Below, piece after piece: positions 14,365 to 19,662 of a DNA stretch of 64,000 bases. A program made the position numbers and the translations under genes. The DNA comes from Fodinicola acaciae. GTDB lineage: Bacteria; Actinomycetota; Actinomycetes; Mycobacteriales; HKI-0501. The stretch is taken from contig NZ_WOTN01000003.1 of NCBI RefSeq assembly GCF_010993745.1, positions 310,001 to 374,000 on the forward strand, given 5' to 3'. The notes under the pieces are model-generated. The model was not told where the DNA came from. It saw only the letters and a list, made by a program, of their open reading frames with translations, and searched no databases. How positions within the stretch are numbered: position 1 is the stretch's first letter; every line of letters starts with the position of its first letter.

Positions 14365-16953
14365 ATGACGGCGCACAACCTCCCGGTCGAGCTGACGCGG
14401 TTCGTCGGCCGCGCCGAGGAGCTGGCCGACATCGAGCGGCTGCTCGCCGACCGGCGGCTGGTGACGCTGGCCGGTGTCGGCGGCGGCGGCAAGACCCGGC
14501 TCGCCGTCCAGGTCGCCAGCCGTCAGCTGGACCACTGGCCGGGCGGCGTCTGGCTGGTCGACCTGGGCCCGGTGACGGACCCGGATCAGGTGGCGCGCCA
14601 GGCCGCGACGGCCCTCGGTGTGCTCATCGAGCCTGGTGGCGACCCGGTTCAGGCGCTCGCGAGCCAGCTGCGGCAGCGCCGGCTGTTGCTCTGCCTGGAC
14701 ACCTGCGAGCACCTGCTGGACGCGGCCGCCGCGCTGGCCGAGACCGTGCTGCGCGGCTGCCCTGAGGTGTCCGTGCTGGCCACCAGCCGCGAGCCGCTCG
14801 GCGTGCCGGGCGAGACGGTGTGGCGTACGCCGTCGCTCAAGGAGGACGAGGCGGTCGAGCTTTTCGCGGATCGGGCAAACCTGGTGGCGCCGGGCTTCGA
14901 CATCCGTGCCGCGCAGACGGACGTACGCGCCGTGTGCTCGCGGGTCGACAACATCCCGCTGGCCGTCGAGCTCGCCGCCGCCTGGGTCCGCGCGTTGTCG
15001 CCGGCGCAGATCGCCGCCGGCCTCGACGACCGCTTCCGGCTGCTGGCCGGCGGCGCGCGGCGCGCGGTGCCGCGCCACCAGACGCTGCAGGCGTCGATGG
15101 CCTGGAGCCACGCGCTCCTCGACGCCGACGAGCAGACGGTGTTCCGGCGGATGGCGGTCTTCTCCGGCAACTTCCCACTCGCCGCGGTGGAGGCGGTGTG
15201 CGGCGGCACGCTCGCGATCGTCGGCCGGCTGGTCGACAAGTCGTTGGTGACCGTACGCGAAACCGCCGGCCGCGCACACTATCGGCTGCTCGACACGGTC
15301 AGGCAGTATGCCGCGGAGCGGCTCGCCGAGGCGGCGGAGACGACCGAGACCCGCAGCCGACATCTGGATTTCTACCTTGCCAGCGTGGAAAAAGCCGAGC
15401 CGGGGCTGGATGTACAGCGGGACAACGTCAACGCCGCGCTGGACTGGGGACTGTCCACATCGGACGGTCGTGGCCGGCAGCTGGCCGCGGCGATGGCGCG
15501 CCGCTGGTTCGTCGACGGTCAGGTGCACGCCGGCCTCGGTTTTCTGCGCCGCGCTCTGGATCCCGACGACCGCTCGGCGCTGCAGGCGCAGCTGCTGGCC
15601 GGCATCGCGATGCTGCAGACGATCAGCGGCCGGCTGTCCACCGCGGAAGCGACCGCACGACGCGCGCTCGAGCTCGCCGACGAAAACGGTGACGAGATCG
15701 CGCGCGGCCGCAGCCTGGCCGCACTCACCTTCTGCCATTTCTTCACCGATTTCGAGCTGTGCCAGGACACCGCACGCGAGGCACAACGCGTCGCCACGGA
15801 GCCGTTTTTCCATGACTGGGCCGCGATCATCGAGGGATACTCGCTGACCACGCGCAACCGGCACGAGGAGGCCACCGCGATCGCGCGCCGCGTGTACGAG
15901 CGCGGCGACCGGTTTTGCATGGCGTTCGCGCTCGGCATCCAGCAGTGGGCCGCGCTGGAGACCGGCCGGCTGCGCGAGGCGGCCGAGATCGGCGAGGAAC
16001 AGCTGGAGATCGTGACCGCGATCGGCGACTATTTCGCGGTCGGCACGCTGGTCAGCCCGATCGCGCTGGTCAGCGGCATGACCGGGCACCTCGCGGTCGG
16101 CCGCAAGATGATGGACGCGGTCGTACGCTCCATTGACGAAATGCCGGACGCCGACGCCGTCGGCTTCGAGCACACCATGGGATGGCTGCACCTGTGGGAC
16201 GGCGACCTGGACAACGCCGTGCGGTGGTTCGGCCGCGGCATCGACCGGATGGCCGGCAACACCCGCGAATGGACCGCCGCGCGGTGCCTGCCCGGCATGA
16301 CCGCGGCGCTGCGGCACCTCGGCCGCCTCGACGAGGCGTGGACCCAGGCCGAGCGCGCCGCGGAGATCGCCACCGCGTACGGCGCGCCGTATCTGCTGGC
16401 CGAGGCGCTCGACGAGCAGGCCCTGCTGATCGCCGCCCGCGACCCCGGCCGCGCTCGCGACCTGTGCCACGAGGCGCTGGCGCTGCGCCGCGACAACGGC
16501 CTGCGCACGTATCTGCTGAAAAGCCTCGACGTGCTGATCAAGCTGGAGCTCGACGCCGGCAACGAGGCCGAGGCCGCGCGGCTGCTGGCCGCCGCGAAAG
16601 CCGCTCGCGCCGAGATCGGCTATCCGTGGCCACCGCTGGAAAATCCGCCGGAGCTGGACACCGACACGATCGACCCGCCGTCACTGGACGACATTCTCGC
16701 CGTGGTGACGCGCGGCCGCGGTCCGCGCAACCGGCCGCAGGTCGGCTGGTCGAGCCTGACGCCGGCCGAGCTGGAGGTCGTACGGCTCATCCGCGAGGGA
16801 CTGTCCAATCCGGACATCGCCGCCCGGCTGTACGTGAGCCGCGCGACCGTCAAGGCGCATCTGACGCACATCTACGCGAAGCTGAGCGTCGCCAACCGCA
16901 CCGAGCTGGCGACCGTCGCCGCCGACCGGGAAAACCGGCTACCGCCGGCCTGA
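14365..16953 (+). CDS. NB-ARC/TPR LuxR-family transcriptional regulator (LAL-like)
   Basis: 862 aa from ATG 14365. The N-terminus is an AAA/NB-ARC module: FVGRAEELADIERLLADRR, Walker A GVGGGGKT at 37-44, RRLLLCLDTCEHLLDAA as Walker B, SVLATSREPLGVPGE and VDNIPLAVELAAAWVRALS. Residues about 380-760 are helical, TPR-like repeats. The C-terminus is a LuxR helix-turn-helix (LTPAELEVVRLIREGLSNPD, then VSRATVKAHLTHIYAKL). Upstream frames extend to 13972 but overlap the divergent gene. It most likely activates the divergent NTF2-like/membrane-protein operon in response to an unknown ligand. Its 3' end overlaps the convergent membrane-protein gene by 15 bp. Confidence 0.92.
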   Translation: MTAHNLPVELTRFVGRAEELADIERLLADRRLVTLAGVGGGGKTRLAVQVASRQLDHWPGGVWLVDLGPVTDPDQVARQAATALGVLIEPGGDPVQALASQLRQRRLLLCLDTCEHLLDAAAALAETVLRGCPEVSVLATSREPLGVPGETVWRTPSLKEDEAVELFADRANLVAPGFDIRAAQTDVRAVCSRVDNIPLAVELAAAWVRALSPAQIAAGLDDRFRLLAGGARRAVPRHQTLQASMAWSHALLDADEQTVFRRMAVFSGNFPLAAVEAVCGGTLAIVGRLVDKSLVTVRETAGRAHYRLLDTVRQYAAERLAEAAETTETRSRHLDFYLASVEKAEPGLDVQRDNVNAALDWGLSTSDGRGRQLAAAMARRWFVDGQVHAGLGFLRRALDPDDRSALQAQLLAGIAMLQTISGRLSTAEATARRALELADENGDEIARGRSLAALTFCHFFTDFELCQDTAREAQRVATEPFFHDWAAIIEGYSLTTRNRHEEATAIARRVYERGDRFCMAFALGIQQWAALETGRLREAAEIGEEQLEIVTAIGDYFAVGTLVSPIALVSGMTGHLAVGRKMMDAVVRSIDEMPDADAVGFEHTMGWLHLWDGDLDNAVRWFGRGIDRMAGNTREWTAARCLPGMTAALRHLGRLDEAWTQAERAAEIATAYGAPYLLAEALDEQALLIAARDPGRARDLCHEALALRRDNGLRTYLLKSLDVLIKLELDAGNEAEAARLLAAAKAARAEIGYPWPPLENPPELDTDTIDPPSLDDILAVVTRGRGPRNRPQVGWSSLTPAELEVVRLIREGLSNPDIAARLYVSRATVKAHLTHIYAKLSVANRTELATVAADRENRLPPA

Positions 16954-17400
16954 CCGGCGAAACGTACGCGCGTTGCGAGCCGTCGTGGTGATCAGCACCG
17001 AGACCACGACCCCCATCACCAGGTCCATCGACGCGGTCGCGACGCGGCTGTTGAACCCGACGTCGAGGGTCAGCGGCGCGAGCGTACCGATCAGCGTCGC
17101 GACCCCGACCAGCCAGCCGAAATACCAGGTCGGCCGGGGCACGACGACGGACAGCAGCTGCAGAATGCCGGCGGCGATCAGCGTCAGGATCGCCGCCGCC
17201 AGCGCGTACGCGCCGGTGTTCACGCTCCCCCACGCGCCGGCGGCCGTCGGCGCGAGCAGCGGCACGCCGAACGCCGAACGAGCGATCAGGATGCCGGCGA
17301 CCGCGACCAGCGCGGCGATGACCGCGCTCACCACCGCACCGGCCCACAGCCGGCGCGGATCCAGCCGCGAGTCGTCGCCGCCATAGCCACCGTCGCTCAT
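16939..17400 (-). CDS. DUF6069-like four-span membrane protein
   Basis: 153 aa with an Asp/Gly-rich cytoplasmic N-terminus and about four membrane spans (LWAGAVVSAVIAALVAVAGI, AYALAAAILTLIAAGILQL, YFGWLVGVATLIGTLAPLTL, STDLVMG-like ATASMDLVMGVVVSVLI). The GVATLIGTLAPLTLD segment and overall size fit the actinobacterial DUF6069 group, whose role is unknown. AAGGGG lies 6 bases before the ATG. A 25-codon frame overlaps this start by ATGA, and the tandem array lies directly upstream, so its transcripts may have to cross the array. The C-terminus is strongly basic (TFRRSGRR). Confidence 0.75.
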   Translation of the reverse strand: MSDGGYGGDDSRLDPRRLWAGAVVSAVIAALVAVAGILIARSAFGVPLLAPTAAGAWGSVNTGAYALAAAILTLIAAGILQLLSVVVPRPTWYFGWLVGVATLIGTLAPLTLDVGFNSRVATASMDLVMGVVVSVLITTTARNARTFRRSGRR

Positions 17401-17474: not shown

Positions 17475-17515
17475 GCCGCACGCGGCGCCAACGCCGCCAA
17501 AAACACGACACTCAC

Positions 17516-18005
17516 CGAACGCCGCGATCCTGACGACGCTCGCCGAACGCCGCACCTCCCGCAGCCGCCACCGAACGCCGCACTTCAGGAGACACCCGAC
17601 CGCCGGCGCCGCCAAAACCCGACACACACCGAACGCCGCACCTCCCGCAGCCGCCACCGAACGCCGCACTTCAGGAGACACCCGACCACCGGCGCCGCCA
17701 AAAACCCGACACACACCGAACGCCGCACCTCCCGCGGCCGCCACCGAACGCCGCGCTTTTGCCGACATTGGACCGCCGACGCCACCAAAAACCCGACACT
17801 CACCGAACGCCGCACTTCCCGCGGCCGCCACCGAACGCCGCGCTTTTGCCGACATTGGACCGCCGACGCCACCAAAAACCCGACACTCACCGAACGCCGC
17901 ACTTCTCGCGGCTGCCACCGAACGCCGCACTTCTCACGGCACGCACCGAACGCCGCACTTCAGGCGACACTCGACCGCCAACGGCACCTAAACCGCGGCG
18001 CTCGC
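17516..18005. repeat. Tandem array with 86/87-bp higher-order period (non-coding stretch 17401-18090)
   Basis: The core CGAACGCCGC occurs at 17516, 17544, 17572, 17630, 17658, 17717, 17745, 17804, 17832, 17891, 17919 and 17947, with a variant (CGAGCGCCGC) at 18006. Spacings alternate 28 and 58/59, giving higher-order units 17544-17629 (86 bp), 17630-17716, 17717-17803 and 17804-17890 (87 bp each), then a partial copy. Units 1 and 2 differ by one substitution and one indel. Units 3 and 4 differ by one substitution, while 1/2 and 3/4 differ clearly (TTCAGGAGACACC against TTTTGCCGACATTGG), so the array grew by pairwise duplication. Because 87 is divisible by 3, long frames stay open on both strands, but no family match or start signal supports a protein. 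It lies between cimA and the DUF6069-like gene. Confidence 0.9.
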
Positions 18006-18025
18006 CGAGCGCCGCGGTTTAGGTG
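17985..18025. terminator. 20-bp perfect palindrome closing the array
   Basis: CACCTAAACCGCGGCGCTCG (17985-18004) and its exact complement (18006-18025) are separated by one base. The right arm is a variant of the array unit (CGAGCGCCGCGGTTTAGGTG against CGAACGCCGCACTTCAGG), so the palindrome is an array unit joined to its own inverse. It lies 66 bp past the cimA stop and would form a very stable terminator hairpin. Confidence 0.7.
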
Positions 18026-18090
18026 ACAGTCGGTGCGACGGGCCTACATCTGGTACGCGGCCGAGGCGGACACACCGAGGCTCGCGGCGG

Positions 18091-19662
18091 CTACCTTCGC
18101 AGGCCGTACGTCAACGCGTCGACCATCGCGCGCCAGGACGCCTCGACGATGTTTCCGTGTACGCCAACGGTCGTCCAGTCACGCTCGGCGTCGGTCGTCT
18201 CCAACAAAACGCGCGTGACCGCGTCCGTGCCGGGGCGGCCTTCCAGGATCCGCACCTTGTAGTCGGACAGCTCCATGCCGGACAGGCTCGGATAGCGGCT
18301 CACCAGGCCTTCGCGCAGCGCCTGGTCCAGTGCGTTGATCGGACCGTTGCCCTCCGCGGTGGCGATGATCCTTTCGTTGCCCACCAACAGTTTCACCGTC
18401 GCCTCACAGGCGACCCTGCCGTCGTCGCGGTGCTCGATCAACACGCGATAGGACTCCAGGGTGAAATAGCTCGGCTTGCGACCGTCCAGCTCCGAGCGTA
18501 CGAGCAGCTCGAAGGAGGCGTCCGCGGCCTCGAACGACCAGCCTTCGGCCTCCAGGTCCTTGACTTTCTCGACCACCCGTCCGGCCGCCTCCGGATGACC
18601 GGCCAGGTCGACACCGAGCTCGCGACTCTTCAGCTCGATGGAGGCCCGGCCGGCCATCTCGGTGACGAGAATGCGCATGTCATTTCCGACGGTGGCCGGC
18701 TCCATGTGGTTGTAGAGCTCCGGACTCACCTTGATCGCGCTCGCGTGCAACCCCGCCTTGTGGGCGAAAGCGCTGGACCCGACGTAGGCCTGGTGGGTGT
18801 CGGGTGCGATGTTGGCGATTTCGGCGATGGCGTGTGACACCCTCACCAGCTCGGTCAGGCATCCGTCTGGGAGCACCGACCGACCCATTTTCGTCACCAG
18901 ACCGGCGACGACGGGGAAAAGGTCGGCGTTGCCGGCCCTTTCCCCGTAGCCGTTGGCGGTGCACTGGACGTGTGTGACACCGGCCTCGACGGCGGCCAGC
19001 GTGTTGGCGACGGCGCAGGCGGTGTCGTCCTGGCAGTGGATGCCGAGCCGGAATCCGCCGCGTTCCAGCACTTCCCCGACGACCTTGCCCAGACCCATCG
19101 GCAGCATTCCACCGTTGGTGTCGCACAGCACGCCGACGCTCGCGCCGGCCTCGAAAGCCGCTTCGAGTACGCGCAGGCCGTAATCGCGATCGTGTTCATA
19201 GCCGTCGAAAAAGTGTTCGCAGTCGAGGAAAACCCGGCGGCCTTCGGCGACCAGGAACGAGACCGTGTCCCGCACCATTTCCAGGTTTTCCTCCAGTGTC
19301 GTACGCAACGCGCGCTCCACGTGGCGTACGTCGGATTTCGCGACCAGCGTGACCACCTCGGTCTGCGCGTCGCGCAGCGCCAGCACCTGCTTGTCCTGGC
19401 TGGCTTTCGTGCCGGCTTTCCTGGTCGAGCCGAAGGCGACGAGCTTGGCGTGCTTGAGGACCAGCTCGCCTTTGGCCGCACGAGCGAAAAACTCGGTGTC
19501 CTTCGGCATCGCGCCGGGCCAGCCGCCTTCGACGAACCCGACGCCCATCTCGTCGAGCAGCCGCGCCACCGCGAGTTTGTCGTTCACCGAGTAGGTGATG
19601 CCTTCCCGCTGCGCACCATCTCGCAGGGTGGTGTCGAAGACGTGGAAGCTGTCGTCCATCAC
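18091..19662 (-). CDS. cimA: (R)-citramalate synthase
   Basis: 523 aa of the citramalate synthase type of the LeuA/NifV/HCS family, which condenses pyruvate and acetyl-CoA to (R)-citramalate, giving a threonine-independent route to 2-oxobutyrate and isoleucine. The HMGL-like barrel shows FDTTLRDGAQREGI (metal and substrate site), FLDCEHFFDGYEHD, GVLCDTNGGMLP and LGIHCQDDTACAVANTLAAV, with the metal-ligand pair in IHCQDD, and then CTANGYGERAGNADLF. The C-terminal LeuA allosteric domain follows (PSYFTLESYRVLIEHRDDG to DALTYGL), so feedback by isoleucine is expected. GTG 19662 and ATG 19659 both follow GGAAAGGAC; GTG is kept. A leader peptide and attenuator hairpin sit directly upstream, so it is attenuated by branched-chain amino-acid supply. 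Confidence 0.95.
   Translation of the reverse strand: MMDDSFHVFDTTLRDGAQREGITYSVNDKLAVARLLDEMGVGFVEGGWPGAMPKDTEFFARAAKGELVLKHAKLVAFGSTRKAGTKASQDKQVLALRDAQTEVVTLVAKSDVRHVERALRTTLEENLEMVRDTVSFLVAEGRRVFLDCEHFFDGYEHDRDYGLRVLEAAFEAGASVGVLCDTNGGMLPMGLGKVVGEVLERGGFRLGIHCQDDTACAVANTLAAVEAGVTHVQCTANGYGERAGNADLFPVVAGLVTKMGRSVLPDGCLTELVRVSHAIAEIANIAPDTHQAYVGSSAFAHKAGLHASAIKVSPELYNHMEPATVGNDMRILVTEMAGRASIELKSRELGVDLAGHPEAAGRVVEKVKDLEAEGWSFEAADASFELLVRSELDGRKPSYFTLESYRVLIEHRDDGRVACEATVKLLVGNERIIATAEGNGPINALDQALREGLVSRYPSLSGMELSDYKVRILEGRPGTDAVTRVLLETTDAERDWTTVGVHGNIVEASWRAMVDALTYGLRR

Follow-up and report, generated by a model that had tools for sequence, protein, structure and literature searches.

Between a cimA-like gene and a DUF6069 gene of the soil actinomycete Fodinicola acaciae lies a tandem array, which raises the question of what kind of repeat it is, how it grew, and at which level, DNA, RNA or protein, it might act. 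The array was analysed within a 64,000-nucleotide stretch of the genome, referred to here as the window (G000:C3:310001-374000; F. acaciae genome G000, 8,860,993 bases, 4 contigs). It begins ~68 bp past the stop codon of the cimA-like gene (citramalate/homocitrate-synthase-like, with HMGL and LeuA dimer domains according to Pfam; 18091..19662, - strand), and ~106 bp separate it from the start codon of the DUF6069 gene located downstream (16939..17400, - strand).

Units and higher-order repeats of the window array

The array occupies positions 17506 to 18024 approximately (- strand), with degenerate units at either end; a preliminary description had correctly recognised it, albeit within limits that were too narrow. 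TRF assigned it a period of 87 bp (4.5 copies, 93% match, score 572), far above any other repeat of the window. The core CGAACGCCGC is present in 12 exact copies at 17516-17956, with a one-mismatch copy at 18006, and its spacings are, in order, 28, 28, 58, 28, 59, 28, 59, 28, 59, 28, 28 and 59, as expected from the 28 and 58/59 bp first reported. Matches to CCGAACGCCGC with <=1 mismatch numbered 20, against 9.2 expected, a count reached in 0/100 shuffles.

Read on the - strand, which is the sense strand of both neighbouring genes, the array resolves into 28-bp units (S) and 31-bp units (L), arranged in + order as S S (S L) S (S L) S (S L) S (S L) S S (S L) S, so that the 87-bp repeat corresponds to S+S+L. 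Subunits had indeed been noticed before, but with a single size of ~29 bp. The five L units lie, all on the - strand, at 17580..17609 (30 bp, one base short), 17666..17696, 17753..17783, 17840..17870 and 17955..17985 (31 bp each). At the higher level, the order A A B B holds: the two A copies (86 + 87 bp; 17544..17716, - strand) are 97.7% identical and the two B copies (87 + 87 bp; 17717..17890, - strand) 98.9%, while A and B share 84-85% identity, with their divergence concentrated in the 31-bp L unit, at 71%.

Recent growth in an intergenic region, by the unequal exchange originally proposed or by slippage of the 87-bp unit, is borne out by the 98-99% identity of sister copies and by the array-free site of the congener. 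The same features are those of an ordinary neutral minisatellite (VNTR), in which a functionless hairpin between genes would have expanded by slippage. Variation in copy number between isolates defines a VNTR. As an account of a single locus, this explanation was refuted by the finding of ~13 further arrays in the genome.

A genome-wide family with near-fixed unit lengths

The initial view of a single locus thus proved incomplete: searching the genome with the unit revealed about 13 other such arrays, of 286-743 bp each (own-genome blastn and an S-S dimer pattern), and the window array is 1 of about 14 long intergenic arrays of F. acaciae. Together they hold ~233 recognised units, an approximate count since the scanning profile was trained on the same arrays and weak units may escape it; the genome-wide counts rest on pattern and blastn searches. 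The S-S dimer pattern gave 177 strand-hits at ~14 arrays and 0 with the reversed control. When restricted to the CGAGTGCCG form, it gave 0 matches even in F. acaciae, because the units vary.

The conserved positions of the units form a dyad, CGNCGNTCGNCGANCGNCG, which in the 28-bp S unit is combined with a ~9-nt A/T-richer spacer. The 31-bp L unit is common to all arrays alongside S. Units run head-to-tail, up to ~25 per array. Across the 14 arrays, 212 of 219 unit spacings fit 28a+31b (166x28, 31x31 and 15x59), leaving 7 of other lengths. The letters are far less constant, with a mean of ~8.3 differences from the consensus per 28 positions (drift of about 30%) and a mean unit identity of 58% between arrays. 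There are thus ~260 sequence differences per length deviation, whereas bacterial non-coding DNA drifts with roughly one indel per 5-20 substitutions, and unit length therefore appears to be constrained or under selection. Conversion between arrays may contribute to this fixed length, and the strict spacing could partly derive from a small number of founding units combined with such conversion, instead of from selection.

The best self-match lag is 87 bp in the window array, and 115, 143, 171, 199, 230, 258 or 286 bp in others, all of the form 28a+31b (ten of 14 arrays), while it equals 28 in four arrays (L216, L219b, L220 and, weakly, L219). For 176 of 232 units the most similar unit belongs to the same array, which points to local amplification. 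The recurrence of the same units next to unrelated genes, each time arranged by the 28/31 grammar, together with only 7/219 deviating spacings where neutral drift at ~8 substitutions per unit should have generated many length variants, makes us regard a neutral minisatellite as unlikely.

These lags also bear on coding potential. The array is crossed by open reading frames of 177 and 191 aa, and an 87-bp period would fit a gene for a repeat protein with a 29-codon repeat; it had accordingly been suggested that this period keeps reading frames open. This does not hold, as periods of 115, 143 and 199 bp are not multiples of 3 and carry the unit through all frames; 87 is divisible by 3 only because the higher-order repeat of the window has three units. 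Pfam matched no family to the open reading frames of the window array, and the array is missing in the congener, so that the probability of a repeat-protein gene is negligible.

All 14 arrays are intergenic and situated at gene 3' ends, 7 in convergent gaps, 7 in co-directional gaps and 0 in divergent gaps. Among 55 background gaps of 80-1200 bp at the examined loci, 9 were convergent, 31 co-directional and 15 divergent (Fisher P = 0.014 for convergent and P = 0.03 for divergent gaps). Flanking genes were checked with Pfam, the remaining gene calls coming from a simple codon-bias script, and the convergent calls at L213 and L220 depend on a left open reading frame without Pfam match.

Three arrays or elements have conspicuous neighbours. 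At L222 (contig C3, about 1442.8-1443.0 kb), an inverted repeat of about 30 bp (GATCTTGTTTTTCTTGTCTACCCAAACC ... GGTTTTGGGTAGACAAGAAAAACAAGATC) with a MITE-like look adjoins a short S element of two to three units between convergent genes. A hexamer-like GGCACC/GGCAGC low-complexity run abuts the array at L269:5210-5360 (contig C1, about 93.3 kb), and a GCGTCGGTCGGCGGGC satellite run lies on the right edge of the array at L221 (contig C3, about 1304.8 kb).

Sister species and known repeat families

Six arrays could be placed, with both flanks located in synteny, in F. feengrottensis (G001), the comparison involving one genome per species and a G001 assembly that is 74% complete by the tool's estimate. 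S-unit arrays were found at 0/6 of these orthologous sites, the window site included. At five sites about 84-230 bp, free of any array, separate the flanks, and the sixth (aldehyde dehydrogenase/DUF3145) contains 1.85 kb of other DNA. The arrays expanded in F. acaciae and not in its sister species, and the array-free sites of the congener support a recent expansion. Intergenic flanks of the two species are highly diverged, too far for target-site duplications to be judged.

F. feengrottensis instead harbors a dispersed hairpin, CGAGTGCGGGA-N5-TCCCGCACTCG (113 strand-hits), often as doublets with a 31-bp period; the pattern search found none in G000 or G002. When the hairpin was compared, at 15 loci, with the L profile of F. 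acaciae, its score was reached by 0-3/60 shuffles at each locus and by 0/60 at 11 of them. Two of the six sites where F. acaciae has arrays are shared, that of recN carrying a doublet in F. feengrottensis and that of ctaD a partial element. Judging by the short motif and the period, the hairpin doublets and the arrays likely belong to one ancestral family of the genus, with dyad centres of 1 nt (S) and 4 nt (L). Since one sister species has hairpin doublets and the other long arrays, growth, spread and length constraint are directly testable between them.

Within 120 relatives, the S-S dimer pattern had few matches and, among the matches listed, most were 7-bp satellites. The palindrome and dimer matches listed for other genomes were considered as members of the S/L family and rejected, being isolated singles or satellites of 7 bp, such as (CGGCGAT)n, without S/L grammar, and phage and plasmid records gave no match. 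The seven-base satellites (CGGCGAT)n, (CGGCGGT)n and (CGTCGCT)n occur in several genomes of order relatives (L230, L233, L236 and L238); 28, the length of the S unit, is four times 7. In F. feengrottensis, three doublets (L306, L315 and L323) share an extra flank (GCGCGCGCTTACTTACGTAATAAAA...CCCGCCACCC) that may represent another dispersed family, and a long perfect inverted repeat (L290:2090-2170), with arms about 25-28 bp long around a 9-nt loop, sits between P450 and hydrolase genes, where F. acaciae has an S/L array.

With a probability of roughly 60%, we favour a palindromic family of the REP/BIME kind, present at the level of the genus, which local unequal exchange built up in one species into satellite-like arrays, under a constraint on length and probably acting at the DNA level. 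An ancestral family of short intergenic palindromic repeats would have given rise in F. acaciae, at the 3' end of about 14 genes, to long arrays resembling satellites, each a run of 28-bp S units interrupted at intervals by 31-bp L units. Local duplication of blocks of units, through unequal crossing-over or replication slippage, would have produced higher-order repeats specific to each array, unit length being held near-fixed while the letters drifted. The dyads would then represent putative DNA sites at set spacing, either recognised by a protein or exerting an effect at the ends or meeting points of transcription units.

The likeness to REPs and BIMEs lies in short palindromic, high-copy, intergenic and regularly spaced units, in mosaics of two unit kinds, and in a position after genes, in convergent or co-directional gaps (PMC2817692, PMC3733652). 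REPs have been reported 3' of genes, between convergent or co-directional ones (PMC3733652), the same placement as that of the F. acaciae arrays. In the broad sense the arrays are thus REP/BIME-like, with ~233 high-copy palindromic extragenic units in 14 arrays at gene 3' ends and none in divergent gaps; in the strict sense, in which BIME units alternate in orientation, they are not, as all units lie head-to-tail. The BIME-2 class is characterised by the binding of DNA gyrase. They further differ from BIMEs and REPs by arrays of one orientation with up to ~25 units, strict 28/31-bp spacing and higher-order repeats, and by the lack of a tag tetranucleotide and of a RAYT. Formally, they are distinct through their satellite-like organisation.

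Genuine REP/REPIN elements, which owe their mobility to a RAYT (Y1 tyrosine) transposase whose gene the repeats usually flank, would likewise be palindromic, high in copy number, intergenic and located 3' of convergent or co-directional genes (PMC3733652). Such an origin is nonetheless highly improbable, because Y1_Tnp (PF01797) was detected in 0/3 genomes (F. acaciae, F. feengrottensis and G002) as opposed to 5/14 control genomes, the GTAG tag is absent from the S and L consensus, and units do not alternate. The congener doublet resembles the CGTC-tagged REPs (Di Nocera 2013, PMC3733652) in starting with CGTCGAG and in forming a stem-loop with a 5-nt loop, but its CGTC is paired with GACG inside the stem and is not an unpaired tag, and a CCA tail was not seen; CGTC repeats are listed for five phyla, Actinobacteria not among them (PMC3733652). 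The GTAG-23 clusters of Thermomicrobium roseum differ in being GTAG-tagged, and the text consulted mentions no 28/31 grammar.

We found no published description of such arrays in a literature search that fell short of most subscription journals. As a rule, repeats in bacteria occur as single palindromes or as alternating mosaics, while the F. acaciae family shows a satellite-like higher-order organisation. Eukaryotic alpha-satellite DNA consists of diverged monomers in array-specific higher-order repeats that are homogenised locally, and by analogy, as regards organisation only, the F. acaciae arrays may be likened to it; they differ in spanning hundreds of bp and not megabases, in being intergenic and dispersed, and in having no link to a centromere.

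DNA-level and RNA-level readings

A near-fixed unit length despite sequence drift suggests that the dyads are probably DNA sites, not RNA hairpins or protein. In addition, no covariation was detected between opposing variable positions of the dyad. The main competing proposal is a structured RNA, in which arrays of hairpins would be transcribed as 3' UTRs or sRNAs with their stems under selection. For the - strand of the window array, which is the sense strand of cimA, folding is far stronger than in shuffles (z = -6.9, versus -1.6 for the + strand), and this strand contains four terminator-like hairpin + U-run matches, against 1.6 expected, features that leave room for an RNA-level role, although a near-palindromic repeat with a G-U bias would yield such folding and such matches in any case. 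The imbalance on one strand is G-U, not A-C; however, pairing between the two arms of one unit is slightly poorer than when arms are exchanged within the same array, and this asymmetry was therefore dropped as a sign of RNA. Moreover, array orientation matches that of co-directional genes in only 5/7 cases, and Rfam returned nothing above cut-off and just two chance mir-193 matches at E<=1. We consequently hold a structured RNA to be quite unlikely. Since covariation is absent and folding is expected from the palindrome, a DNA-level role is favoured as the more probable one.

A bolder version of the DNA-level reading is possible, if doubtful: the arrays could be length-locked ladders of sites for a putative DNA-binding protein that forms oligomers and, in the genus, serves to mark or insulate the 3' ends of genes, the protein setting the 28/31-bp spacing and L serving as register-shifting punctuation. 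If true, this would amount to a lineage-specific chromosome-organising or transcription-insulating system made of satellite-like higher-order repeats. With its fixed 28/31-bp units, the family gives a search for a binding protein something definite to aim at.

The cimA end of the window array is occupied by an inverted repeat of 45 bp that is near-perfect (17983..18027), built on the last S dyad and forming a strong hairpin of 21 pairs (one mismatch allowed) with a 3-nt loop, GCC, which we infer to be a candidate cimA terminator.
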